From Dysgonomonas sp. BGC7 (GTDB lineage: Bacteria; Bacteroidota; Bacteroidia; Bacteroidales; Dysgonomonadaceae), in assembly GCF_001261735.1 (NCBI RefSeq), contig NZ_CVRP01000020.1, positions 62,001-126,000 on the forward strand: a DNA stretch of 64,000 nucleotides, given 5' to 3'. Shown in pieces: positions 39,875 through 63,108 of the stretch. Position 1 is the first letter of the stretch. Each line of letters begins with the position of its first letter. The notes below the pieces were generated by a model that worked only from the letters and a program-made list of their open reading frames with translations, made no database searches and was not told the DNA's origin. A program made the position numbers and the translations under genes.

Positions 39875-40531
39875 TCATTTTAATTTGTTCAGAAGAATAT
39901 TTTGGTAGATATAAGCCTATAAAACAAAATAAGCCACCTGTTATTAGCGACTTAAAGTTTTTTTGATGTGGACTTAAAGCATGCCTATATGCTTCAACCA
40001 AAGTGTTATTCTTCTATCGGCAAATATAGATATTTTTATCGAGACTGGAGGTTTTGGTCTTGTTATTTCTTCTCGGTAGGTATCTTGCTTTTTATATGTT
40101 GTCAAATAATTTTATAAATCATATAGATCAGTAATTGAAACTTTGACTTATGCGAGAGAAAGATTCACTGTAAGAGTAACAAAAGTTTATCTATATATAG
40201 ATGAATAGACTGATGGTGGAGAGGAAAATAAAAGAAGACAAATCTGAAAAATTTAAAGAAAACTTGTACAAGTTTGTCAGGTTTTAGTTAAAATTATGTT
40301 TTACAGAAAGCGTCTAAATAGTTTTTTAAAAACAAAAATGTACTATTGATTGGTATAAATAAGAATATACATACCAGTACAAATTGTAATGTTTTTGCCA
40401 AAAGAGTATAAAAGAACCATTTTAATCAATATATTTGTTAAATGCTATCAGAGTATTAAAATCAGAAAGTATTTTAATGCAAAATATTATTCAATTGTCT
40501 TATTATTAAGCTTTAATCTGTTTTGAAAAGC
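39875..40531. other. Gene-free intergenic region upstream of the TPR histidine kinase
   Basis: No credible coding frame is seen. It is very AT-rich. It contains a minus-strand -7-like box (40021-40028) for the MFS gene, the 31-nt repeated element (40266-40296), and a plus-strand -7 box TATATTTG (40430-40437) for the kinase gene with no clear -33 partner. Confidence 0.55.
40266..40296 (+). repeat. 31-nt repeated element, copy 2 (upstream of histidine kinase gene)
   Basis: It matches 10007-10037 (minus strand) at 30 of 31 positions, with the core TTTGTCAGGTTTTAGTTAAA. Here it lies 236-266 nt before the kinase start and is followed by TATGTTTT, a near match to a -7 box 18 nt after the embedded TTTG. 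Confidence 0.7.
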
Positions 40532-42745
40532 ATGAAATCAATAATTAGTATTCTCTTTTTTTGTGTTTCTCCGATTCTTATTTTTTCTCAAAGTCTTGAA
40601 GTGTTAAAGAAAAATGCTACAGAGAAGAATAATGCGGTAAGTTGGAATGCATTAGCTACGTATTATTTTGAGAAGTCAGATATAGATGCTTGTCATTCTT
40701 GTGCCGAAAAAGCATATGACTTAGCTGTTAAAGAGAAAAATAATAAAGAGACCGGTCATGCTTTGATGACACTTGCTGCAAGCTACGAGCATCAGTTAGA
40801 ATGGGATAAGTTCGTACAAGTTAACAAAAAAGCTTCACTGTATTATGAAGCTGCCGGAGAATTTGATTTGCAACTCGAGGCTATTAATAATATAGGTTAT
40901 GCATATAATACTATAGGGAAATATGATGAAGCTATTATTGCTTTTAAAGGAGCACTCGACCTTATTCATAAAGAAAAGATGAAAGAAGGTCAAGCAGCAG
41001 TTACTCTTATCAATATGGCATTTGCATATCTGTATAAAGGGGAGCTTGCCCCAACAAAGAACTATATAGTGCAGGCTATTTCTGCAGCAGAAATAGCTAA
41101 AGATACAATCGTATTAATTGAAGGTAATAATCAACTCGGTGTTATCTATAAAAGAGAAGGTGATTATCAGAAAGCATTAGAGCATTACGAAAGAAGTTTA
41201 CTCCTTTATGAATTAACAGATGACAAAAGGAAGCTCTGTACGGTTTGGTTAAATATCTCGAATCTGTATTATGATTGGGGTAAATTTAACAAAGCGCTGG
41301 AGCTTGGACGAAAAGCTTTGGTTTTTGCTGAAAAGTATAATTTGGAGAAACCTATAGTTGGGCAAGTGTTAAGTTCGGTAGGCCTTTATTTGCTTAAGAA
41401 TAATAAATATAATGAGGGCTTAGATACGTTGAGAATGTCTCTTCCTTATTTCAAGGAAAGTAAATATCAAAACTATCTTGTAAGCCTCTATCTTGCAAAT
41501 GCTTTCGAACATACTAATCAATCGGATTCCTGTGAATTTTATCTACAAAAAGCAGAAGATATATTGGCTCAGAATAAGAATTTCCCTGCTGTCCGATTTT
41601 ATAGTAACAAAGGTACATGGCTTTATAAGAAAGGTCGGTATAATGAGGCAATACCTTTATTGGAAAGTTATGTGAAAGAATTTCAGAATAATCCGACTAA
41701 GAATCAAATGTCTGAGTCTTATATTTTTTATAATGCACTTTCCGAGTCTTATGAGTTAGGTCCTAAAAATCTACAATCAGCCTTGTTCTATAAAAAATTA
41801 GCTTATGAAAAAAGAGATTCTTTATATAAAGAAGAACATAATAATACAATCAATGATTTTTACGCTCGATATGAAACAGCCGAAAAAGAATTAGTGATAA
41901 GTCGGTTGAACGAGGAGAAGCAAAAGACTAAATTTCAAACTACACTAATGATCTCTATAGCCGGCTTGCTTATAGTCTTACTTTTTATTGCATTTCTTTA
42001 TAATAGAATAAAGCGAATTAAAGAAGAAAAGGAGGCGGTAGTTCTGAAAGCAAGAGTAGAGCAAAAAGATACTGAGTATAAAATCCTGCTTAGCAATACT
42101 GAACAGAATATGCTGCGAAAATACTTGGAAGGAAGAGAGTCTGAACGAAAAGCATTGGCTAAAGAGCTGCATGATTCTGTTGCTAGTGATATTATCTCTA
42201 TTATGATGTTGCATGAGAATATAGAAAGGAAGGAACAGGTAAGTTTGATGCTGAAAGATACTTATAGTCATATTAGAGAGATTTCTCATCAGTTAATGCC
42301 GCCAGAGTTTAAATACATGTCTTTGATAGGTATGCTCGAAGATCATGTGGATATATTGAATAGTACAATGCCTACTCGCTTTTTTGTAAATATTACAGAT
42401 TCAGATATTCCTTCTGTTATAGAAGAAATGTCGGATAGCCAAATGAAAGAAATCTATTACATTATACAAGAAGTTTTGGGTAATATACGTAAACATGCCG
42501 AAGCAACGACCGCAGAGATAAGGTTGTCACTAGATAAAGAAGAAAAACTTATTATTTTGATTATAGATGATGGTAAGGGATTTAATGTACAACAAAATAG
42601 TAAAGGGATTGGCCTTCGTACGATAAAAGATAGATGTACAGACTTGAATGCAAACTTAGAAATAGAGTCGGTTATAGGTAAGGGTACAACAGTTACCATT
42701 AGTCTATTCTACTCAATAAATCCAGAGCCAGATCGTCGATGTTAA
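40532..42745 (+). CDS. TPR-containing sensor histidine kinase (HisKA_3/NarX type)
   Basis: A 737-residue sensor. Signal peptide (to about residue 20), then a periplasmic array of TPR units (residues 35-430), one membrane helix (about 473-490), a coiled coil, and the kinase core. The phospho-acceptor is His547 in ALAKELHDSVASD. The ATPase domain has the N-box EVLGNIRKHAE (Asn651) and the G-boxes DDGKGF and GIGLRTI. It should phosphorylate a LuxR-type response regulator, and one lies directly downstream but on the opposite strand. I chose ATG 40532 over the upstream TTG. The last 47 nt overlap the end of the regulator gene. Confidence 0.88.
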   Translation: MKSIISILFFCVSPILIFSQSLEVLKKNATEKNNAVSWNALATYYFEKSDIDACHSCAEKAYDLAVKEKNNKETGHALMTLAASYEHQLEWDKFVQVNKKASLYYEAAGEFDLQLEAINNIGYAYNTIGKYDEAIIAFKGALDLIHKEKMKEGQAAVTLINMAFAYLYKGELAPTKNYIVQAISAAEIAKDTIVLIEGNNQLGVIYKREGDYQKALEHYERSLLLYELTDDKRKLCTVWLNISNLYYDWGKFNKALELGRKALVFAEKYNLEKPIVGQVLSSVGLYLLKNNKYNEGLDTLRMSLPYFKESKYQNYLVSLYLANAFEHTNQSDSCEFYLQKAEDILAQNKNFPAVRFYSNKGTWLYKKGRYNEAIPLLESYVKEFQNNPTKNQMSESYIFYNALSESYELGPKNLQSALFYKKLAYEKRDSLYKEEHNNTINDFYARYETAEKELVISRLNEEKQKTKFQTTLMISIAGLLIVLLFIAFLYNRIKRIKEEKEAVVLKARVEQKDTEYKILLSNTEQNMLRKYLEGRESERKALAKELHDSVASDIISIMMLHENIERKEQVSLMLKDTYSHIREISHQLMPPEFKYMSLIGMLEDHVDILNSTMPTRFFVNITDSDIPSVIEEMSDSQMKEIYYIIQEVLGNIRKHAEATTAEIRLSLDKEEKLIILIIDDGKGFNVQQNSKGIGLRTIKDRCTDLNANLEIESVIGKGTTVTISLFYSINPEPDRRC

Positions 42746-43397
42746 TATAATTGAGTATTAGTCCTAAAACAATCATGTCGTTCGATGTATCTACATTTAG
42801 CTTTTCCTTTAGGTCTCGACGATATGATATTATGGTAGATGTTTTATAACCCAACTTATTTGCAATGCTTTCGGAAGTCATACCCATAGCCACCATACGG
42901 AGAATGGTTATTTCCATTTCGGTGGGTAGTCCGTTCTTAAATTTTATTTTAGACCTGTAATCCTCACTTCTTTTATGCAAGACCTTAAATCTGGGGCAGA
43001 GGTAATTGTTTCCTTCCAAGACTGCTTTTACAGCTTCTTGTAAGTATTTCTTTTCCGGTCCTTTTAATACAATACCTTTTACATGTTTCAGCTTTTTAAG
43101 GAGACTGACCATAGCAAAATCTTCTCTCATCGTAAATACAATGATCTTTGCCTTCGGATCCATCTTACTTATTTTTCTGATATAGTCTATTTGTCTTACA
43201 TCAATATTGGCTTCGGTACGGAAACCCAGGTCTAAAATGTAGAGGTCATATTTTTGATTCTCTACTTTATCAATAGCTTCTTGCGGAGAATAGCAAACCG
43301 CAATGTTTCCTATCATAAACTTTTCTTTTAATCCTGTAATTATGCCATCAATAATGAAAGCATGATCATCGGTAATAAGAAGATTCTTAATTTCCAT
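42699..43397 (-). CDS. LuxR/NarL-type response regulator
   Basis: A 232-residue regulator. The receiver domain has the acidic pair in LLITDDHAF, the phospho-acceptor Asp56 in LYILDLGF, Thr in VFTMRED and Lys in IVLKGPE. The C-terminal LuxR-type HTH is EMEITILRMVAMGMTSESIANKLGYKTSTIISY, here quoted in two parts: EMEITILRMVAMGM and TSESIANKLGYKTS. ATG 43397 is likely (43400 is equally possible). A -7-like box (43432-43425) predicts a start near 43418. Its natural partner is the convergent TPR kinase, with which it shares 47 nt at the 3' end. Confidence 0.87.
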   Translation of the reverse strand: MEIKNLLITDDHAFIIDGIITGLKEKFMIGNIAVCYSPQEAIDKVENQKYDLYILDLGFRTEANIDVRQIDYIRKISKMDPKAKIIVFTMREDFAMVSLLKKLKHVKGIVLKGPEKKYLQEAVKAVLEGNNYLCPRFKVLHKRSEDYRSKIKFKNGLPTEMEITILRMVAMGMTSESIANKLGYKTSTIISYRRDLKEKLNVDTSNDMIVLGLILNYINIDDLALDLLSRID

Positions 43398-43448
43398 CAT
43401 AAAGCTTAGATAATAGTTCTTCGACAAAAATAAATTACAAACTTTTCT

Positions 43449-43476
43449 AAAAACACCCTATATATAGGGTGTTTTT
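43449..43476. promoter_or_regulatory. 28-bp perfect palindrome between response regulator and Cdc48-like operon
   Basis: Left arm AAAAACACCCTA (43449-43460), a TATA centre, and the exact complement TAGGGTGTTTTT (43465-43476). It lies about 31-58 nt upstream of the predicted regulator transcription start, where an activator or autoregulatory site would be. It also has the form of a bidirectional terminator, but no gene ends here. Both readings remain open. Confidence 0.6.
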
Positions 43477-43669
43477 ATGTTTTTCTATTATTGACCTTTG
43501 AAGAACTGAAATTAACATAAAAATCACGAAAAACATCGACAGAAATACATAAAGTGCTTGCTGAAGTATTAAAAAGAGCTCTAAAGTCTTTTTTCTGTAG
43601 AAGTATATATGTGTTAAATACTCTTTTAAGCTAAATATTATAAAAATAATAAAATTAGTCAGATTTACT

Positions 43670-44095
43670 ATGGAAAATGAAACGCCTAAAATTCGGATGA
43701 ATGGTGAAATTGTGCTTGAATTTATTAGTCCAAAAGAACTAAATAATTTAGCTTCTTCTGTTGAGAAAAAAGGAAGATCTTGGAGATATGTCGGAGAAGA
43801 GGATTCCATTCTTACTTTAGATACTAATGATTGGACTATAGAGTGTGAGAAAAAAGCAATCAAGGCTCTTATTACAGATTGGATTGTTGATGAATCTCAA
43901 TATGTAATGAAAGTAAAGAGTGACCCTGTCGAAGATAATTTTGAGGATTTGTCATATTCTTTTGCTGTATCGATGATTGGTCAGTTGGTTGATAAGAAGG
44001 AGCTTATAAATTATTTGTCTTCTTTACAAACTGTGTACTTAAATGCTTCTCCAAGATCTTCGGATGAAAATGAATTACATGCAGAAAAAAAATAA
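43670..44095 (+). CDS. Hypothetical protein, first gene of the Cdc48-like operon
   Basis: I do not recognise this 141-residue soluble protein. It begins with a beta-rich stretch (KIRMNGEIVLEFISPKELNN), contains a tryptophan-bearing middle (SWRYVGEEDSILTLDTNDW), and continues with helices. The C-terminal tail is acidic and probably disordered (SPRSSDENELHAEKK). There is no signal peptide or membrane segment. It lies 23 nt before the 260-residue gene and heads an eight-gene run with short gaps. No clear promoter consensus precedes it. It may be a substrate adaptor, which is only a guess from position. Confidence 0.6.
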   Translation: MENETPKIRMNGEIVLEFISPKELNNLASSVEKKGRSWRYVGEEDSILTLDTNDWTIECEKKAIKALITDWIVDESQYVMKVKSDPVEDNFEDLSYSFAVSMIGQLVDKKELINYLSSLQTVYLNASPRSSDENELHAEKK

Positions 44096-44118
44096 TTAAT
44101 TATTAAAGTATTACAAAT

Positions 44119-44901
44119 ATGGGAACACATATTCAAACAACAATTCAGGTTAGGATGAAAGGTTTAGACGATGTCTTTCATCGAACAATTATTGCATTGG
44201 AGAGGCTGGAAATGTTTCTTGAGATTGAGAAAAATCAAGAGGCAAAAGATATTATAGAACAGACTGCAATAAAAACCGATCGTGACCTACACGATGACGA
44301 GAAAAACCCTCCTAATAGAGAATTGCTTTTTGGAGAGGTGCAGCTTCAATGTTCAGCCTTATACTTTCAAACAAAATTTGATGATAAAGAAATGTTTGAA
44401 AAAACAGTAAGATATTTCTTGAATGATTTATTAGAATGGTATGGGGGAAGAGGTGAACAAGTAGAGCCTAATGAAGTTGAAAATTTCTTTTTGCCAATAG
44501 TTGTGTCTCTTAGTCGGCAGATTACTTCTGTAGCTGATATTATGGAGGCTGTTGAAAAATATGTCGGAAAAATAAAAGGGTTGGAAGATTATTCTGACGA
44601 AGAAAAAGAATTGGCTGTAATAGAGGGATTTAAGGCGTTTGTTCTTGCCGATCATAATACTAAAGAAGCAAATAAAGCTTTTGAAGAGTCTGGAGAGGAT
44701 GTTGTTTTGACATCTCACAAGCGTGGTGACTCAATAGATGGTTATAAGCGGTTATATCTGACGTTTTGTAATGTATATGAAGAGGCTATTCCTGTGAAAC
44801 TATTGGTTTTGACTATCTCTAACTACCTTCCCGAACTTGCAGAACAATGCCCTGAAATATCAAATGAAGCTATAGATACTTTCTTCGAAGAAAAAAAATA
44901 A
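44119..44901 (+). CDS. Hypothetical helical protein of the Cdc48-like operon
   Basis: I do not recognise this 260-residue protein. It is almost entirely helical and acidic, without membrane segments or cysteine clusters. Notable stretches are FHRTIIALERLEMFLEIEKN near the N terminus and YKRLYLTFCNVYEEAIPVKL near residue 215. The gaps to its neighbours are 23 and 19 nt, so it is co-transcribed. It could be a scaffold or regulatory subunit of the ATPase machine; the sequence does not say which. Confidence 0.6.
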   Translation: MGTHIQTTIQVRMKGLDDVFHRTIIALERLEMFLEIEKNQEAKDIIEQTAIKTDRDLHDDEKNPPNRELLFGEVQLQCSALYFQTKFDDKEMFEKTVRYFLNDLLEWYGGRGEQVEPNEVENFFLPIVVSLSRQITSVADIMEAVEKYVGKIKGLEDYSDEEKELAVIEGFKAFVLADHNTKEANKAFEESGEDVVLTSHKRGDSIDGYKRLYLTFCNVYEEAIPVKLLVLTISNYLPELAEQCPEISNEAIDTFFEEKK

Positions 44902-44920
44902 ACAATAAAAATATATTATT

Positions 44921-45286
44921 ATGGCATTGAAAAAGTTAGAGAAAAATAGAGTATCCTATTTCGAATTATTTATAAGCTGTCCGGTTTGTATGGATAGGGG
45001 GAACATGACTCCTCAATCTTATTGGTCTCACCATGACAGAGGTTGTAATGGTGATATATATATGGGAGAAAATGCATTCTATTATTGTGAAAAGTGCAGT
45101 GCAACAAGCCATGTTATGAAGTGGAAATATGGTTGTCCAAATCACTCAAGCGGAGCAGAATATGAATTTCTGGAAGCAAGTGATGTTGCATTAGCTCAGG
45201 CTGTTGCTACTGCAGGGCAAATGGTTTCGGCAACAGGTATTCAATGGTTGCAAAATTTTCTTAGAAATATGGAAAAGGTAGTATGA
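44921..45286 (+). CDS. Zinc-ribbon protein ZnR1 of the Cdc48-like operon
   Basis: A 121-residue protein with a Cys/His pattern of two metal sites: Cys20 and Cys23 (SCPVCMDRG), a His pair at 37-38 after SYW, Cys42 (CNGDIYMG), Cys56 and Cys59 (YYCEKC), His64, Cys72 and His75. The C-terminal 35 residues form an amphipathic helix region (AQAVATAGQMVSATGIQWLQ). It is a close paralogue of the next gene and a more distant one of the gene at 47733. It is probably a zinc-binding adaptor that recruits or recognises protein partners (inference). Confidence 0.7.
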   Translation: MALKKLEKNRVSYFELFISCPVCMDRGNMTPQSYWSHHDRGCNGDIYMGENAFYYCEKCSATSHVMKWKYGCPNHSSGAEYEFLEASDVALAQAVATAGQMVSATGIQWLQNFLRNMEKVV

Positions 45287-45289
45287 GTT

Positions 45290-45667
45290 ATGAATGTTGA
45301 TTCGTTAAAAATAGACGGTACAACTTATTTCAAGTTGTATATAAGTTGTCCTGTTTGTTCTGACAGAGGATATATGGTGGCACAAGATTATTGGCTTCAT
45401 TCAGAGGTTAATAACGGATGTGGATGTGACGGTAGTATTTATATTGGTGATAATGCTTATTTTGTTTGTGAAAAATGTCAAGAATCAGCTCATGTTACGA
45501 AATGGATATATAGTTGTACGGTCCATTCTGATGTAGAAATAAATAAACTGGAGAAAGCAGATCCGATATTAGTCCAAGCTGTATCAACAGCAGGTCAGAT
45601 GGTAACATATACAGGAATAGCATGGCTATCTACTTTTCTAAAGAATATGAATTTGACAATTGAATAA
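45290..45667 (+). CDS. Zinc-ribbon protein ZnR2 of the Cdc48-like operon
   Basis: A 125-residue paralogue of the previous product, starting 3 nt after its stop. Ligands keep the same order: Cys20/Cys23 (SCPVCSDRG), His37, Cys44/Cys46, Cys60/Cys63 (CEKC), His68, Cys76 and His79. The C-terminal helix is also retained (VQAVSTAGQMVTYTGIAWLS). A tandem duplication followed by divergence is likely. An insertion around residue 41 adds an extra Cys pair spacing (CGC). The function should parallel that of ZnR1. Confidence 0.7.
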   Translation: MNVDSLKIDGTTYFKLYISCPVCSDRGYMVAQDYWLHSEVNNGCGCDGSIYIGDNAYFVCEKCQESAHVTKWIYSCTVHSDVEINKLEKADPILVQAVSTAGQMVTYTGIAWLSTFLKNMNLTIE

Positions 45668-45678
45668 ATCATGACTTT

Positions 45679-47736
45679 ATGGAATTAAATTTAAAAGTAT
45701 TCAGCCCAGATAATACCATTGGTTTCCCCCGTGCAGATATGAATATTTGGATAACGCAAAATGACAAAGATAAGTTGTATGATGGTATAACCGAAACGAA
45801 TGAACCTCAGTTCGTCAAGGTTGAATGTAAGGATATCCTTTGTAAATTCACTATGTATGCCAAGCTTGCGATAATCAATAGTCGTGTAGAGTTGGGCGAT
45901 AATCATATTTGGATACCTAAAGACCTTATACATAAATCATGGTTGATAGGTAAATCGACAAAAGTAGAAGTTTCTCTTGTCGAAAATCTTGGTGAACTAA
46001 GATTTGCTGAGTCGATTATAATTGATCTCAACCCTCAATTAGTTGAAAACTGGTCGGAAGATGAAGCAAATAATGCAAAGAATTATTTTGTAACTCAGAA
46101 TCGTGTCTCTTTCGATTCGCAAATGGTTTTTATAAAACCCGGAACCAAAAAGGTTACTATAGGAGAGATTGATGCTATTTATCCTAAATCAGACAATCGT
46201 TTCGAGTTGTATCGGCTTGATAGTAACACAAAAGTAATATTTAATGGACTGCCTGCCGAACAACAGAAGGTTATCGATTTTTCACAGATAGGAGGATTGT
46301 CAAATGTAATTAATCGTTTGCGCGAAATAATACAAATTCCAATCAATCATCCTGAATATCTGGAAAAGTTTGGTGTCAAACCTCCTAAAGGAATGCTTAT
46401 GTATGGGCCTCCCGGCAATGGAAAAACAATGGTAGCTAGAGCTGTAGCTCATTCTATGGGCTCTGCTTTTATCACAATAGAAGGACCCGAGTTAATGTCT
46501 AAGTATGTGGGGGTTGGAGAACAGAGGCTGAGAGAGAAGTTTGAAGAGGCTGAAACAAAGGGAAATTGTGTAATATTTATTGATGAGATAGATTCTATAG
46601 CATCGAAGAGAAGTGATTCCAGTGCCGAATTTCAAGTGTCGATAGTTGCCACTCTTCTCAACTTAATGGATGGGATGAAAAGTACAAATAAGATATTTGT
46701 TATTGGTGCAACAAATCGGTTAAATGCTATAGATCCCGCTTTGCGTAGACCCGGACGCTTCGACTTAGAGTTTGAAGTTCCCTTACCTAATTTATCAGCA
46801 AGACAAGATATTCTGTCTAAATACATAAAACTAGAGAAAGAGGATCTTCTCGATAAGTCAGTCAATGAGAACACATTGTACATGTTGAGTGAATTGACTA
46901 ATGGCTTTTCGGGAGCAGATATTTCTCTTCTATATAGAGAAGCTGTTATGCATAGGATTAGAAATAATATAGAATTTAGCTCTCAAACGGGGAAAATAAA
47001 TATATTAAGGCAAGTTGATGACATAAAGCTGCTTGATGACGATTTCTATACTGCAATGAGATCGATTGTTCCAACATCACTGCGTGGAACTGATATCCGA
47101 AAAAATGATGTTGATTGGGCACAATTAATAGCTCTTGATGAACAAAAGAAAGAATTGGAAGAAATTAATACTAAGTTAAATATAGTATTAACCGATTCTT
47201 CTCTCAAACAGCGTCCTTCATTCTCAAATATTCTATTAAAAGGGAAAAAAGGTTCAGGGAAACATACATTTATTCATGCATTTGCTCAAAAGTTTGGATA
47301 TGAAATATTAGAAATAGACCTTATATCACTATCCTCGTTTTCTATGTCTGAAGCATATCAACGTATAGATGAAACAATGACAAAAAGCAAACAAACCGCT
47401 CCTTCTGTCTTAGTACTTAGCAATCTGGAAAAAGTAGAGAAGAAAAACTTATTTGCATACAAAATATTAAATGAGATTAATAAATTGAATAAACATTTAA
47501 AAATTATCTCATTTTTGACTTGTGAAGATATTACAGAGGTTCCGGATTCTCTATTACAATATAAGGGGTATGAAAAACAATTAGACTTTGACACATCGAT
47601 AGATATAGTTAGAAATAGTCTTAAAAATGACTATAATCAGGAACTTTTAAATTTTGAAAAATATAAAAATATGCCTATCGGGCAGATAATATCAATATAT
47701 AAAGAAAACGAATTAATAGGAAAGTATAATAAATGA
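45679..47736 (+). CDS. Cdc48-like AAA+ ATPase with degenerate second AAA domain
   Basis: A 685-residue protein. Residues 1-170 resemble the Cdc48 N domain (beta-rich; IWIPKDLIHKSW, then LRFAESIIID). D1 (about 200-440) is complete: IGGL start, Walker A GPPGNGKT (243-250), pore loop KYVGVG (275-280), Walker B VIFIDE (298-303), sensor 1 GATN (343-346), arginine finger region RRPGRFD (356-362), and GFSGAD (409-414). D2 (about 480-640) has a Walker A-like GKKGSGKHT (522-530), but the Walker B position reads VLVLSNLE without Asp-Glu, so it may bind but not hydrolyse ATP. It should act as a hexameric unfoldase. Zinc-ribbon genes flank it on both sides. Confidence 0.9.
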   Translation: MELNLKVFSPDNTIGFPRADMNIWITQNDKDKLYDGITETNEPQFVKVECKDILCKFTMYAKLAIINSRVELGDNHIWIPKDLIHKSWLIGKSTKVEVSLVENLGELRFAESIIIDLNPQLVENWSEDEANNAKNYFVTQNRVSFDSQMVFIKPGTKKVTIGEIDAIYPKSDNRFELYRLDSNTKVIFNGLPAEQQKVIDFSQIGGLSNVINRLREIIQIPINHPEYLEKFGVKPPKGMLMYGPPGNGKTMVARAVAHSMGSAFITIEGPELMSKYVGVGEQRLREKFEEAETKGNCVIFIDEIDSIASKRSDSSAEFQVSIVATLLNLMDGMKSTNKIFVIGATNRLNAIDPALRRPGRFDLEFEVPLPNLSARQDILSKYIKLEKEDLLDKSVNENTLYMLSELTNGFSGADISLLYREAVMHRIRNNIEFSSQTGKINILRQVDDIKLLDDDFYTAMRSIVPTSLRGTDIRKNDVDWAQLIALDEQKKELEEINTKLNIVLTDSSLKQRPSFSNILLKGKKGSGKHTFIHAFAQKFGYEILEIDLISLSSFSMSEAYQRIDETMTKSKQTAPSVLVLSNLEKVEKKNLFAYKILNEINKLNKHLKIISFLTCEDITEVPDSLLQYKGYEKQLDFDTSIDIVRNSLKNDYNQELLNFEKYKNMPIGQIISIYKENELIGKYNK

Positions 47737-48050
47737 GAATTGATATTTATATGGCCTGTCCACTATGTTTACAACATAGATACAACTGTTCAAAAGAATA
47801 TTGGAGACATGGCAGTCCCGATTGTAATGGGATACTCACTTTGGATGAGAGAGCATGGGTTCATTGTAGTGGACGTTGTGGAAACAAAGCCCATCTTTTA
47901 GATATGAGTTTGACTTGTAGCAGTGGAAGACACTCTTTTGCTGTTGTGTCGATAGAAGGATTTGCTCAAGCAATATCTATGGCCAGTATGGGAGTTACAG
48001 CTTCTGCTACAACATGGTTACAGAATGTTTTACATCATATACAAAGATAA
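47733..48050 (+). CDS. Zinc-ribbon protein ZnR3 of the Cdc48-like operon
   Basis: A 105-residue third paralogue; its ATG overlaps the stop of the ATPase gene (ATGA). The ligands are Cys9/Cys12 (ACPLC), His26 after EYW, Cys31 (CNGIL), Cys45/Cys49 (CSGRC), His54, Cys62 and His67. The C-terminal helix is conserved (AQAISMASMGVTASATTWLQ). The wider spacing CSGRC and shorter N terminus set it apart from ZnR1 and ZnR2. The coupling to the ATPase gene supports a direct partner role. Confidence 0.7.
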   Translation: MRIDIYMACPLCLQHRYNCSKEYWRHGSPDCNGILTLDERAWVHCSGRCGNKAHLLDMSLTCSSGRHSFAVVSIEGFAQAISMASMGVTASATTWLQNVLHHIQR

Positions 48051-48051
48051 T

Positions 48052-48465
48052 ATGGGACAGATGCATTTTCCTGGCGAAAAGCTTATTAAATCAGTGACAG
48101 GACTAAATAAGGAGGATGAGGATAGTGATATTTATGATACTATAATTGGTTTTGCAATTATATTTTTAACGATTGGATGTATTATTGGTTGCTTTTTTTC
48201 ATTTGTAAATAGTGTCAAGCTTTTCGTTGGAGGGTTTGTATTGTTTACAATAATATTGCAAATAAAAGATTGGCTAAAAGGCGAGGAGAATTTATCCGAT
48301 GTATTATATGCAATTGCAGGGTTAGGTTATTTTTACTATTTAATTACTTGTTTTATTGGTCTGTTTAGTAACTTCTGGGTTAACCTGAAAGCAGCAGGAG
48401 TGGGAACATTAGTATTTATAGGTGTTTGTTTTTTTATTGGATTGTTTGATAATAGTAAAGATTGA
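48052..48465 (+). CDS. Small four-helix membrane protein of the Cdc48-like operon
   Basis: A 137-residue protein starting one base after the ZnR3 stop. The start at 48052 is favoured over an earlier ATG inside ZnR3 because its N terminus MGQMHFPGEKL then matches MGSMIFPDELEKY of the next gene product. A cytosolic stretch of about 30 residues leads to four hydrophobic helices (residues 35-137). It might anchor the complex to the membrane; no known family is recognised. Confidence 0.65.
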   Translation: MGQMHFPGEKLIKSVTGLNKEDEDSDIYDTIIGFAIIFLTIGCIIGCFFSFVNSVKLFVGGFVLFTIILQIKDWLKGEENLSDVLYAIAGLGYFYYLITCFIGLFSNFWVNLKAAGVGTLVFIGVCFFIGLFDNSKD

Positions 48466-48469
48466 CACT

Positions 48470-49633
48470 ATGGGGAGTATGATATTTCCTGACGAGCTTG
48501 AGAAGTATGGTAAACTAATGAATAAAAATTTTCAAGCGCAACCTATATATAGCTTTGAATCGAGACAAAATAGAAATCGTAATCGTAATAGTTGGGGAAG
48601 AATAAATGAATCTATAGCTGATATTGGTACTTGGGTAGATGAAAATCAAAAGGCATTTGCTAATAATATTTCTGTCATTTTCTATTTTTTAGTTTGGATT
48701 GGACTGGCAATAGGGGTGATAATACTCTGGATTAGTTCTAGTTTTTGGAGTGCGTTGTTAACTGCTATTATTGGGGGGGTAGTTGTTTACTATGCTGCTG
48801 CCATCGGCATGTTTATGCTAATGTTTACTTTGCGAATATTCTTTTTTGTTATCAGATATGTCTTTTATAATATTTATACATTGTTACTTACTCTAGCAAT
48901 TGTCCTGTTCATTACTTTTTTGAATCCAATAAACATTATTAAAGATAGAACTATAGATTTAAACTCAGTTTTATATGAACCTAATTATTATTGTAATGTG
49001 AGTACAGTCTTGAATGTACGTGAGCAACCAAATTCAAAAGCGAGGGTGATAGGTCAATTGAAAGGAAATCAAGATGTTTATGTTTATTCTATTGAAAATA
49101 ATTTTGCAAAAATTGATTTTAAAGGGAATATAGCTTATGTAAAAGCAGATTATTTGAACAAAAAAACAGGCTCTTCCAACCCAAATGAAGATCCCAATAA
49201 TAATGATAATTTAATAATAAAAGAGCTGATTGGACAAAAGATGGCTGGTTATAAAGCTCAGCGGGCATTGCAAGATAGGCTTGGGTTTTGGTGTGGAAAT
49301 CAATTAGGTTATGGGGAAGGTAAATTTTTTATTGAAAGATGGGAAAATACAAAAACACAGGATTTATGGCTTGTCCTAATCGAGAAATCAAATAATGATG
49401 AAGTTATTATTCGAGATGTATTGCCTTTTGAGCAAAAGACGGTAGGTGATATCGGAACATTTTCTGTGTATAATAAACAAACTGAACAATGGTCTGATTA
49501 TATGATGATTCAGGTTTCGAATAATAATGAACTTGTCAAAATATATGATGTAAATTATCAACGCGGAAAAATTATTGCCAGAGATCCGGAACCTTATTGG
49601 GGAAAAGCTCAGACAGAAAGAGATCCTTATTGA
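48470..49633 (+). CDS. Membrane protein with C-terminal SH3-like domain, last gene of the Cdc48-like operon
   Basis: A 387-residue protein. It shares the N-terminal signature (MGSMIFPDELEKYG) with the preceding product, has three to four membrane helices (about residues 66-160), then a bacterial SH3-like domain (STVLNVREQPNSKARVIGQL, residues 182-201 approx.), an Asn/Asp-rich linker, and a beta-rich C-terminal domain of unknown type. The start at 48470 is 4 nt after the previous stop. Beyond the TGA at 49631 the same frame stays open for 27 codons with protein-like content (GEEWSLNIAEKY), so the C terminus may be shortened by a nonsense codon. Confidence 0.7.
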   Translation: MGSMIFPDELEKYGKLMNKNFQAQPIYSFESRQNRNRNRNSWGRINESIADIGTWVDENQKAFANNISVIFYFLVWIGLAIGVIILWISSSFWSALLTAIIGGVVVYYAAAIGMFMLMFTLRIFFFVIRYVFYNIYTLLLTLAIVLFITFLNPINIIKDRTIDLNSVLYEPNYYCNVSTVLNVREQPNSKARVIGQLKGNQDVYVYSIENNFAKIDFKGNIAYVKADYLNKKTGSSNPNEDPNNNDNLIIKELIGQKMAGYKAQRALQDRLGFWCGNQLGYGEGKFFIERWENTKTQDLWLVLIEKSNNDEVIIRDVLPFEQKTVGDIGTFSVYNKQTEQWSDYMMIQVSNNNELVKIYDVNYQRGKIIARDPEPYWGKAQTERDPY

Positions 49634-49789
49634 AGTTTAAGACAAACTAATGAAAATATTGAAGGAGAAGAATGGTCACTAAATATAGCAGAAAAGTACA
49701 TCTCAGTAAACTGGTAGCATGCTTGATTATGTAACTAAACTTTCTATATTTATTCTAAATTTTAGTAAAACAATATTCTTTAATTTGCA

Positions 49790-49822
49790 AAAATACCCTC
49801 ACATTAGTGAGGGTATTTTTTA
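49790..49822. terminator. Intrinsic terminator between Cdc48-like operon and SusCD locus
   Basis: ATACCCTCAC and its near-complement GTGAGGGTAT surround a short ATTA loop, with A-run and T-run on the two sides. It serves both the plus-strand operon and the convergent minus-strand locus. The remaining sequence 49634-49865 has no convincing gene. Confidence 0.85.
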
Positions 49823-49865
49823 AGTAGTGTTGCATTTACTAAATAACTATATCACATAGTATGAG

Positions 49866-50942
49866 TTATTGTCTTTTAGTCATTACTATATCCATATATC
49901 TAATATATGTAACCTGGCTTCCTGAAGGAGGGCTAGTAGTATAACCATAAAGTCCCCAACCTCCGACAACCTGACCACTCCATGTTCCATTATCTTTAAA
50001 TGTATATGTCAGAGTGCCATTATTGTTTGAAAATTCTCCTAGCATCTGAATCGTATTTGTATAACTTAGACTTCCTCCGGAGGTTCTTGCACATAGATAT
50101 ATATAATAAGGATCTATTGTAGCTACAAGCTGTCCCATATTAACAAGAAGGTTGTTATTGGAAGTATTATAAGAGAGAAGTACATTCCCTTTCACTGTTT
50201 TAGTAGAGTTGGCAGGAAGATCTTCTAACAATACAGATGCATCAGTCGTTTTTTCAGTTATGGTGACGATGTCTGTTTGTCGACCAGTAAGACTTGGATT
50301 TGTATATTCAAAATTCCATTCTCCTAATATATCAAGATACGATGCTTCCTGCTTTATAATAATCTCTTTTTTACTCTCAGATCCATCTGCAAAAGTAACT
50401 GCAAAAGTAACTTTTGATGACCTCACTATTCCTGCACTAGGATCCACAGTAATATCAATAGTTCCATTATTACTAACGATGGCTTTTACCCATGTGTCCT
50501 GAGCTGTAAGAACAATAGGAAGAGAACTTTTATATGGTATCTCTTTTGTTAAACCTACAAATGGAAATTTAAGAGAATAATCATCAACGTTTTCCAAATA
50601 GAAAACAGATGATAATTGTATTACTGACATATCAACTTTTTCATTTCCTGCTTTGATGGTGATAATTCCATTACGACCTCCAATATTCTTATTGGCTCCT
50701 ACAGATACATTTACAGTTTTACCTGATACGCTAATAGTTATCCACTCTTGTTCTGTTGTTGCAGATATGTTTTCTTCAGATTCAATTTTAATAAAGCCGG
50801 TTCCTCCTTCTTGCTCAAAAAGAATATTTGACTCTATTACTTTTAATTTTCCGTCTGGAACATCTACACCAGTATCTTTTTCACACGAAGAAAGGAAGAT
50901 TCCTAGAGAGATAAATAGTATTATATTTAATATTTTTTTCAT
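49866..50942 (-). CDS. BACON-domain lipoprotein of the SusCD locus
   Basis: A 358-residue lipoprotein (signal ending FLSSCEKD). Two BACON-like beta domains (about residues 35-115 and 120-200) carry the typical Trp motifs (EQEWITISVSGKTVNVSVG, QDTWVKAIVSNNGTIDITV). They are followed by a lipocalin-like C-terminal part (ILGEWNFEYTNPSL). BACON domains are carbohydrate- or mucin-binding modules at the cell surface. It is the last gene of the SusCD operon. Its substrate is unknown. Confidence 0.75.
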   Translation of the reverse strand: MKKILNIILFISLGIFLSSCEKDTGVDVPDGKLKVIESNILFEQEGGTGFIKIESEENISATTEQEWITISVSGKTVNVSVGANKNIGGRNGIITIKAGNEKVDMSVIQLSSVFYLENVDDYSLKFPFVGLTKEIPYKSSLPIVLTAQDTWVKAIVSNNGTIDITVDPSAGIVRSSKVTFAVTFADGSESKKEIIIKQEASYLDILGEWNFEYTNPSLTGRQTDIVTITEKTTDASVLLEDLPANSTKTVKGNVLLSYNTSNNNLLVNMGQLVATIDPYYIYLCARTSGGSLSYTNTIQMLGEFSNNNGTLTYTFKDNGTWSGQVVGGWGLYGYTTSPPSGSQVTYIRYMDIVMTKRQ

Positions 50943-50985
50943 AATAGCCTATTGTATTTATTCAGTTATTGTAAAAACAGATTTA

Positions 50986-52311
50986 TTACTGTTTTTGAAA
51001 TGACATTACCATATAGCGATTTTGAATCCCGGTATCATAGTTGCTTGTCACTCCATTACTTATAACCCGGCGAATAACTCTAAAGCCAACAGTAGTTGTA
51101 GAAAGGCTTCCTTCAGGATCTCTTGAAAGTTGTATTAAATTGGATGAAGTTAATTTCCCCATAAACCGTCCATAAGCTTCTCCTAAGCTAGCATAGAAGT
51201 TTCCTGTGTCAACCATCGGGTACAAGTTATAATTATCATCGATTCCTACAGGCTTTACTGTGTGTGCACCTATACAGAGCATCCCCCTGGATTTGTCATA
51301 CTGCATAACAACTACAGCATCGGATACATTATAGGCAAAATTTTCAACAATATAAGATTTGCCCCTTACCTTTTGAATAATATTGACCGTTCGGCTGTAT
51401 TCAGTTCCAGCTGTATCTTTATATTTAAACAGGTATGTACCCAGATATTCACTATATCTTACATGTCCAGCAGGAATAGTCATCTGAATTACAATATCTG
51501 TAGCTCCATTATCGGTACATGTAAATGAGCTATTTACACTATTCCAAATAAAGTTTTGAGCTTCTTTTCCGTTGATAGTTAGAGGCTGTATAAGCTTCAT
51601 TCCAGTTGGAGTATAAACTATATTTTTTAAATAAGACTTTCCTTCATATGAGAATGAAAATTGTCTGGTTTCGAGTATCGATCCGCTGGATAACTGGTTG
51701 TTAGATTGATGAATAGAAAATTCTGGATATTCGCTGACTTGATTGTAAATGTTATTTATTTGATCAAGATAGTCGTCCCATGTAACGTTATCCGGTAAAC
51801 GATGCATTTCCATTATATTACCATATTTTTTGCCTCTGAGGATTATCAAATCATCATAAGCCTCCATAATGGTAAATTCAAAATCTCCTTTGTATGTTGT
51901 ATAACTACCATGTTGTTCATGATAGTAATGAAGGAATAAATTATAAGTATCAAAAGATAATGTAATGCTCATATCCTGCTCTAATTTATAGAGTGAGGTT
52001 ATTTTCTTATGAGTATTCATTGAAGGGTCTATGTCATCCAGTGCATTCTGGTCAACAGCAGCTGTTACAGTACCATTCTCAAATTTTAAAAGGAAATTGA
52101 AAGCACCCCTACGTGTTGCATCTGTATCTCCTGCTATATATTCAAGTACCCATCCATTTGATGGCTTAGTCAGAATGTTTTCATAGAGCTTTTGTGCTTC
52201 ATTTAATCTTTCTGCAGCAGATTTGCCAAAAATATCTTCCTCTTCGTGCAAGCATGACTGCATGAATAGTACTCCAGCAAAAAGTAATATATAATATTTA
52301 AAATCTCTCAT
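50986..52311 (-). CDS. DUF4302 domain-containing lipoprotein
   Basis: A 441-residue lipoprotein (LFMQSCLHEEED). The N-terminal half has the DUF4302 pattern (ERLNEAQKLYENILTKPSNG, WVLEYIAGD, FNFLLKFENGTV). Members occur next to SusCD pairs with a zinc metallopeptidase of the Mx1 type, as here, and are thought to be surface-exposed accessory binding proteins. It lies 43 nt from the BACON gene and 9 nt from the peptidase gene, so all are one transcript. Confidence 0.82.
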   Translation of the reverse strand: MRDFKYYILLFAGVLFMQSCLHEEEDIFGKSAAERLNEAQKLYENILTKPSNGWVLEYIAGDTDATRRGAFNFLLKFENGTVTAAVDQNALDDIDPSMNTHKKITSLYKLEQDMSITLSFDTYNLFLHYYHEQHGSYTTYKGDFEFTIMEAYDDLIILRGKKYGNIMEMHRLPDNVTWDDYLDQINNIYNQVSEYPEFSIHQSNNQLSSGSILETRQFSFSYEGKSYLKNIVYTPTGMKLIQPLTINGKEAQNFIWNSVNSSFTCTDNGATDIVIQMTIPAGHVRYSEYLGTYLFKYKDTAGTEYSRTVNIIQKVRGKSYIVENFAYNVSDAVVVMQYDKSRGMLCIGAHTVKPVGIDDNYNLYPMVDTGNFYASLGEAYGRFMGKLTSSNLIQLSRDPEGSLSTTTVGFRVIRRVISNGVTSNYDTGIQNRYMVMSFQKQ

Positions 52312-52320
52312 AATATTTAA

Positions 52321-53217
52321 TTATTTATAAAGTGTATTCAAATCGATTTTTTCTATTTCTTTTTTCCGTCGACCTACAATTTCTCTCATCTTGTAAAGAT
52401 CTATACCCCAACTTTCTTTATAATAATTATATACAATATCAAATTTTTTCTTTATTAGATTTGCGCCTTCTACAGCATTACCACTCGCATCAGTAGAGGC
52501 CTTTATCAACATATTTTCCCACCATTCCGGAGTATTTACTACAAATATAGAATATACTTCGACAAAATCTTCGGTTGGAGAACTAGTTGCGTATGTAGAT
52601 ATACATCCTCCTCTCCATGCTGTAATTTCCGACGAACTTGTCCAGTTATCACTTACATACATTTCTGGAGTCAACTGGTCAAATGCCGGGTCGGTAATCT
52701 TCTTTTGTTGAAATATGTGAGCATATTCATGGTGCATTGTTTTAATATAGCGCATAAGAGTTGTAGGGTCTCCTATTGTAATCGCATTTACATTAAAGAA
52801 TGAAATCCGCAACCCTCCTTCGGCTTCACCCAATACTACAGAACCGTTACTTTTCCAACCGGGATTACCAACATAGTGTAAAACTCTAGGAGCATATTGA
52901 CGAAAAAATGCAGAACCGACATGCTCCTCATAAGGTTCGATCCACAAATATCGCGCAGCAATCGTTAAAGCCTTCGATTTTTCGAAATCGGCAGGTATAA
53001 GATCATAATCATAATTAGATTGAATATCAACATAATTATATATTACTTTTATATTGTAAGGCTTTACGTAATATCTATCCAACCATATATCAAATTCGTT
53101 CTTTTCTTTAATGATTGAGTCGTCAAAAATACTATAACTTGTATCCAAATCGTCTCCACAAGAAGAAAAGGATAGAGCTAATAGTAATATAGGTAAAAAT
53201 ATAAATATTTTTTTCAT
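52321..53217 (-). CDS. Putative zinc metallopeptidase lipoprotein (Mx1 type)
   Basis: A 298-residue lipoprotein (signal ending LSFSSCGDD). The active-site motif is MHHEYAHIFQQKK (HExxH). A second region with GGCISTYATSSPTEDFVEVY may supply the third ligand (Glu). This is the putative zinc-binding peptidase family seen in SusCD loci with DUF4302 proteins. It would sit at the cell surface and cleave a protein or glycoprotein substrate. It is probably the only hydrolytic enzyme of this locus. Confidence 0.82.
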   Translation of the reverse strand: MKKIFIFLPILLLALSFSSCGDDLDTSYSIFDDSIIKEKNEFDIWLDRYYVKPYNIKVIYNYVDIQSNYDYDLIPADFEKSKALTIAARYLWIEPYEEHVGSAFFRQYAPRVLHYVGNPGWKSNGSVVLGEAEGGLRISFFNVNAITIGDPTTLMRYIKTMHHEYAHIFQQKKITDPAFDQLTPEMYVSDNWTSSSEITAWRGGCISTYATSSPTEDFVEVYSIFVVNTPEWWENMLIKASTDASGNAVEGANLIKKKFDIVYNYYKESWGIDLYKMREIVGRRKKEIEKIDLNTLYK

Positions 53218-60976: not shown

Positions 60977-61825
60977 TCATTTATTATCTAATCCACTCAT
61001 TCTTTCTTCGAGAAATTTAATCATTTTATCTAAAAACAGAGTACGACTACCTTTGCGTTCACGGATTTCAAGGAAAGTATGGTAGAAGTCACCCAGATTA
61101 ATATTAAAAACGGTTTCGATATATTCTGCCAATTCTTTTATATTCGTATTGCCATTATTGAAACATCCTGCACTATCCCAGGCATAAATCTGTTCAACAA
61201 GTTCTGCTTTTTTCGCAGTCCAGCTAAGCCTTGTTTTAGGTAAACTTGATACCTCTTGGATATTTGATTCTATATTTCCTATATGTAAAAGTTTATTGTT
61301 GATATATACCGTTAATCTCTCATTGGCTATCATTTTTGCAACCTTAAAATCGAAGCTCGTTGAAAATCTACTATCTCTTTCGAAATAAAAACAATCGAGA
61401 ATTAACTGAATATCTGGCTTGCCTCTCAAAAAGTAATATTTATCAAGGTGGGTGCTTCCAGAGCGATAATATTGATAAAAATCAGCATTGTTGTCGAAGA
61501 AATACTTTATACGACCTAACATACCTTCCAAATAATTTTTCCGATCGATATAACTTCCTGTTGGCATTCTCATCTCCAAATTATATACCTTGCGATGATA
61601 AATAAGAATACTAAAAAGTTGAGGTTTCGTCTCTTTAAAAAAGGTGATTTCATCAAGCGTACTTTTAAATGTATAATTTGAAACAAATTCTTTTAATTCA
61701 TCAAATGTAGACTCCAATAATGAAATAATACTAATAGATTTCTGAAAGATATTACATTCCTCAGAATCAATAAGCTGAATTTCTTTATTGATATTTTCTT
61801 TTATATTGCGAATAAATTGCTCCAT
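60977..61825 (-). CDS. RteC domain-containing regulator
   Basis: A 282-residue protein with the RteC pattern: TFDELKEFVSNYTFKSTLDE, EITFFKETKPQLFSILIYHR, YYRSGSTHLDKYYFLRG (a conserved middle segment), and the C-terminal ELAEYIETVFNINLGDFYHT. In CTnDOT-type conjugative transposons RteC activates excision genes. Stand-alone copies also occur in chromosomes and small mobile elements. No rteA/rteB, integrase or excision gene is visible in this window, so it may be a remnant or an edge of an element continuing to the right. Confidence 0.78.
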   Translation of the reverse strand: MEQFIRNIKENINKEIQLIDSEECNIFQKSISIISLLESTFDELKEFVSNYTFKSTLDEITFFKETKPQLFSILIYHRKVYNLEMRMPTGSYIDRKNYLEGMLGRIKYFFDNNADFYQYYRSGSTHLDKYYFLRGKPDIQLILDCFYFERDSRFSTSFDFKVAKMIANERLTVYINNKLLHIGNIESNIQEVSSLPKTRLSWTAKKAELVEQIYAWDSAGCFNNGNTNIKELAEYIETVFNINLGDFYHTFLEIRERKGSRTLFLDKMIKFLEERMSGLDNK

Positions 61826-62859: not shown

Positions 62860-63108
62860 TTACTTTCTGAAAATATAATTAGCTATAATCCATGTGTTAA
62901 ACCCAAACACTACCATATATGGAATCGGATTAAAATGATTTGGACAATGTTCACTCTTACATCTGAAGAATATAAGCCATACAATTATTCCCATCAAAGC
63001 ACCTATAGATATACTTATCAGAGAAAGATATCTTTTTATAATGGGATTCAGTTTTGATGGAGTTTCTTTTCTTGCTGCTAATCTTCTTATACGTCTCTTT
63101 TTACTCAT
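62860..63108 (-). CDS. Small membrane protein, DUF6132-like
   Basis: An 82-residue protein with a basic N terminus (SKKRRIRRLAARKE) and two membrane helices. Between them is FFRCKSEHCPNHFNPIPY; the CKSxxCP...NP arrangement matches DUF6132 proteins, whose function is unknown. It lies 28 nt downstream of the P-type ATPase gene on the same strand and may be co-transcribed with it. The two cysteines might bind metal or form a disulfide. Confidence 0.5.
   Translation of the reverse strand: MSKKRRIRRLAARKETPSKLNPIIKRYLSLISISIGALMGIIVWLIFFRCKSEHCPNHFNPIPYMVVFGFNTWIIANYIFRK

Follow-up and report, generated by a model that had tools for sequence, protein, structure and literature searches.

Layout of the operon

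The window analysed here is a stretch of 64,000 nucleotides of Dysgonomonas sp. BGC7 (contig NZ_CVRP01000020.1, positions 62,001 to 126,000), and its positions 43670-49633 hold an operon of eight genes that encodes a Cdc48-type ATPase with a degenerate second AAA module, together with seven partner proteins (Table 1). The genes all lie on the plus strand with intergenic gaps of 23, 19, 3, 11, -4, 1 and 4 nt, and are followed by a hairpin that is absent from the list of a terminator scanner. The packed layout up to the hairpin, the Cdc48-like ATPase and the two membrane proteins had been proposed in an earlier, sequence-only reading, and all are borne out by the gaps, the family placement and the hydrophobic segments of M1 and M2. 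Above curated cut-offs, only the AAA modules of the ATPase and one SH3 domain match known families; among the partners, Pfam and NCBIfam recognise no nuclease, toxin or protease family, as had been stated. No single named system in Pfam, NCBIfam, PADLOC or PHROGs matches all parts, in agreement with the earlier impression that the make-up is undescribed.

Table 1. Genes and features of the operon (window coordinates)
Feature	Position	Strand	Description
p1	43670..44095	+	141 aa, probable divergent Z-family member with a charged extra C-terminal tail
p2	44119..44901	+	260 aa, acidic (net -23), soluble; without family match
Zinc-motif (Z) protein gene	44921..45286	+	
Zinc-motif (Z) protein gene	45290..45667	+	
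Cdc48-type ATPase	45679..47736	+	685 aa; N-domain ~1-195 (without assigned family), D1 ~199-470, D2 ~480-685
Zinc-motif (Z) protein gene	47733..48050	+	
M1	48052..48465	+	137 aa, about four hydrophobic segments, N-terminus MGQMHFP
M2	48470..49633	+	387 aa, N-terminus MGSMIFP, SH3_3 180-229
Terminator-like hairpin followed by T residues	49793..49816	+	between the operon and the convergent gene 49866-50942 (-)

The ATPase

CDC48 is the top NCBIfam model for the ATPase (316.5 bits, below the whole-protein cut-off of 802.65), against 138.7 bits for the CdvC model. Alignment with Cdc48 genes from the same order, to the nearest of which D1 is 42-45% identical, indicates that the catalytic motifs of D1 are intact and its pore loop aromatic, while in D2 the P-loop remains but Walker B, the sensor Asn, the Arg finger and the lid are lost. 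In two trees, of 28 and 30 rows and drawn with Vps4 rows left out, the ATPase D1 falls within the Cdc48 D1 group (12 rows with support 100/99, and 13 rows with support 95/100), separate from FtsH, from D2 domains and from two viral-contig ATPases, which we take to be ARC-like. Its branch is long (1.64 and 1.92, versus at most 0.61 in the other Cdc48 D1 rows), and the tool flags the placement as unsure.

Neither CDC48_N nor CDC48_2 is among the best 25 of 36 Pfam matches of the ATPase, and hhalign gave 0.2% for the N-domain; as a positive control, a Cdc48 protein of the order (locus L088) gives CDC48_N at 2e-24. The MIT domain is likewise not among the best 25 of 36 matches, and D1 is followed by the degraded second AAA module. 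The genome as a whole has 15 AAA-domain matches. Judged from these motifs and alignments, the ATPase is a diverged Cdc48 protein with a complete D1 and a degenerate D2.

Partner proteins

Eight candidate Cys/His ligands are common to all three zinc-motif proteins. The sequence-only reading called them zinc-ribbon paralogues; the relationship stands, but it is not established that they are zinc ribbons. A profile of these proteins (the Z profile) scores p1 at 14.6 bits, a value reached by none of 1666 scored shuffles, and ranks it first among 1439 background frames, the runner-up scoring 7.9. Aligned to the Z proteins at 22-29%, p1 retains C59 alone of the eight shared ligand positions; it is probably a fourth, divergent Z paralogue. 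Of two soluble proteins first regarded as unrecognised, this leaves one, p2. Relatives of p1 were not found in 40 other genomes, and no credible Z-family relative outside the organism's own genome turned up among the sampled genomes, 101 from the family, 395 from the class and 395 from the phylum.

For p2, matches among 61 genomes are confined to the own genome and five weak ones, with no relative in the plasmids or viral contigs searched; its match to PADLOC PDC-S23 is weak (0.021). M1 matches Yip1 weakly (0.0028, below the cut-off) and has no relatives in 40 other genomes. M2 has a basic N-terminal region, then four to five hydrophobic segments (67-157), next the SH3_3 domain, and last a C-terminal region without assigned family; it has weak matches in five genomes, three of which were confirmed within the SH3 stretch. 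The two membrane proteins start with MGQMHFPGE and MGSMIFPDE, respectively, and thus have MGxMxFP in common. In the 4.32-Mb genome the corresponding DNA pattern has two occurrences, those of the M1 and M2 genes, and a reversed control gave zero; as the pattern was composed after both starts had been seen, the finding is its absence elsewhere in the genome. The membrane parts of M1 and M2 have no significant similarity to each other.

Genomic setting

A DNA search with window positions 40500-53200 against 25 genomes of the genus gave matches in 10, the own genome included. Long matches in other members are confined to ~50440-53200 and to three congeners (G682, G692 and G693), the others being shorter than 100 bases. 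The right-hand genes in these congeners encode BACON-type, DUF4302 and Peptidase_Mx1 proteins with 40-51%, 49-70% and 69-85% identity, respectively. None of the operon genes lies beside this cluster in the three genomes (G682 has a distant 24% AAA match, and the G693 contig stops 1.3 kb past the cluster), and the Z profile has no match in any of them. The G+C content at third codon positions (GC3) of all eight genes is 0.21-0.29, and that of 35 further genes in the window is 0.324 (standard deviation 0.047). Total GC separates the two groups less clearly (0.31-0.38 versus 0.368). Because three congeners that lack a Z-profile match share the conserved right flank, and because GC3 is low, the operon was probably acquired, and the setting fits acquired DNA at a variable site. 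Neither an integrase nor an element boundary could be identified there.

The nearest upstream gene, divergent from the operon, encodes a LuxR-type response regulator (42699-43427). It is convergent, with a 47-nt overlap, with a gene for a TPR sensor kinase (HATPase_c), and this pair (40523-43427) is without a long DNA match in the 24 other genus genomes. Between the regulator gene and the operon, a perfect palindrome, CACCCTATATATAGGGTG, lies at 43454-43471 within a 30-base dyad; no second site exists in the window at up to three mismatches. The palindrome could serve as an operator instead of a terminator. Promoter-like sites of the form TTTG-N17-23-TANNTTTG number 11 in the window, versus 3.84 expected from shuffles, and none lies at 43430-43670.

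Farther away, 60977-61825 (-) encodes an RteC-family protein (6e-79); RteC is a regulator of Bacteroides conjugative transposons. The contig beyond the window (L103, from window position 63000) has, by eye, genes of the metal-transporting P-type ATPase, RND-type efflux and Fur-like regulator types, and at its end a large protein, perhaps of restriction-modification type.

Cdc48 genes elsewhere

Fifteen Cdc48 loci, the nine nearest in the order (eight genomes, L086-L094) and six on plasmids, were scanned for the seven partner proteins at E <=0.01 and with the Z profile at E <=0.1. Partners were found beside none of them, and the same scan recovered the operon itself as a positive control. At L088, three Cdc48 neighbours are named GvpL/GvpF by Pfam, and seven further order-level loci have neighbours of the same type, judged from sequence starts; the last, L092, is cut at a contig end, where only the common upstream genes are visible. 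The closest order-level Cdc48 genes also adjoin an ArsA-type ATPase and another AAA protein, presumably GvpN-like. The aligned gas-vesicle Cdc48 proteins have an intact D2, and a Pfam search with the L088 protein gives a clear CDC48_N match. ATPase homologues that regularly occur without the partners had been named as evidence against a set; all 15 loci are indeed partner-free, but because they are not orthologues of the operon ATPase (intact D2, CDC48_N), they neither support nor refute it.

Possible functions

We tentatively read the operon as a machine docked at the membrane, in which the D1 ring would drive unfolding or extraction. The family of four formed by p1 and the three Z proteins might be adaptors or substrates of this motor, and the membrane proteins might anchor it. 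The sequence-only reading had likewise proposed a remodelling system: a Cdc48-type motor with undescribed partners fits the sequence, but the joint presence of the eight genes in different genera, which was expected to support it, was not found, given the lack of a credible Z relative beyond the own genome among the genomes searched. A more specific version, which we regard as rather doubtful, is a self-contained bacterial membrane segregase, in which the second ring of a Cdc48-derived motor is retired, the new family (three two-zinc members and one that has lost zinc) serves as adaptors or disassembled subunits, and MGxMxFP mediates docking. A segregase of this kind would do the job of Cdc48 at eukaryotic membranes without ubiquitin or a protease. 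In our judgement, made without a survey, the way in which bacterial Cdc48-type motors operate in the absence of ubiquitin is little explored. With seven partners and one motor, the operon would be a small module for adaptors, membrane dock and motor; a set that proved genuine would contribute a new family of partners, including a member without most zinc ligands, and a Cdc48 cut to one working ring.

A motor whose subunits each have one working ring, next to four probable paralogues from a small family, might also recall membrane-remodelling loci of the endosomal sorting complex required for transport (ESCRT) or phage shock protein (PSP) type. AAA ATPases encoded together with membrane-remodelling proteins, at some loci also with zinc ribbons, are described in two papers (PMC11237479, PMC11188069). 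No PspA/Snf7-like family in Pfam or NCBIfam matches the partners, however, and D1 is of the Cdc48 type by score, the trees being without Vps4; we consider this reading unlikely, if slightly less so because p1 is probably a fourth paralogue. A role as an assembly factor for a protein-shelled or surface structure is suggested by the gas-vesicle-type clusters that adjoin the closest order-level Cdc48 genes; it is very improbable, as the operon has no gas-vesicle or shell family and the aligned gas-vesicle proteins keep D2 intact.

The rarity of the block, its apparent acquisition beside a conserved cluster, its low GC3, and its membrane proteins and orphan families would suit an anti-phage or conflict system, in which the motor would detect or unfold a protein of the invader and the Z or M proteins would perturb the membrane. 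PADLOC models agree to the extent that IetA and TRIP13 match the AAA module and PDC-S23 matches p2, but the stronger matches fall on the AAA module and the score for the NCBIfam model IteA_antiphage is 118.6 bits, versus a cut-off of 510. The partners lack nuclease and toxin families above cut-off, Pfam (used here without PADLOC) names no defence gene among 12 flanking genes, and we found no evidence of defence; this function is quite unlikely. An envelope-stress proteostasis module under the neighbouring two-component genes appears similarly improbable: the sensor kinase and the divergent regulator lie immediately upstream, and the SH3 domain and membrane proteins would be in keeping, but the other genus genomes searched have no credible match and the partners include no protease family.

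Comparison with known systems

IetA of the IetAS anti-phage system resembles the operon ATPase in the AAA module (PADLOC, 2.7e-39), and differs by the low IteA_antiphage score noted above and by the lack of a protease family among the operon partners. Gvp families do not occur in the listed matches of the eight operon proteins. Bacterial and archaeal ESCRT/PSP loci, as described (PMC11237479, PMC11188069), likewise combine an AAA ATPase with membrane proteins, whereas Pfam and NCBIfam find no ESCRT-III/PspA-like family among the seven partners; in the double-AAA protein of the PSP paper it is the N-terminal module that is inactive, and here the inactive one would be the C-terminal module.

The actinobacterial Cdc48-like protein Cpa has an N-domain, two canonical AAA modules and a proteasome interaction, according to its description (PMC6017811). 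The operon ATPase resembles Cpa in being bacterial, Cdc48-like and composed of an N-domain, D1 and D2; it differs in its degraded D2, and the operon has no recognised protease gene. With the tandem-AAA family of Cdc48, p97 and VAT, to which the gas-vesicle-linked Cdc48 of the order and the plasmid-borne Cdc48 of archaea and proteobacteria belong, it shares two AAA modules and a D1 inside the Cdc48 D1 group; it differs from them in the loss of D2 motifs and lid, an unrecognisable N-domain, the long D1 branch and seven partners that are absent beside the 15 other Cdc48 genes. The novelty of the operon is in its partner genes and its degraded second ring, and the motor class itself is known.
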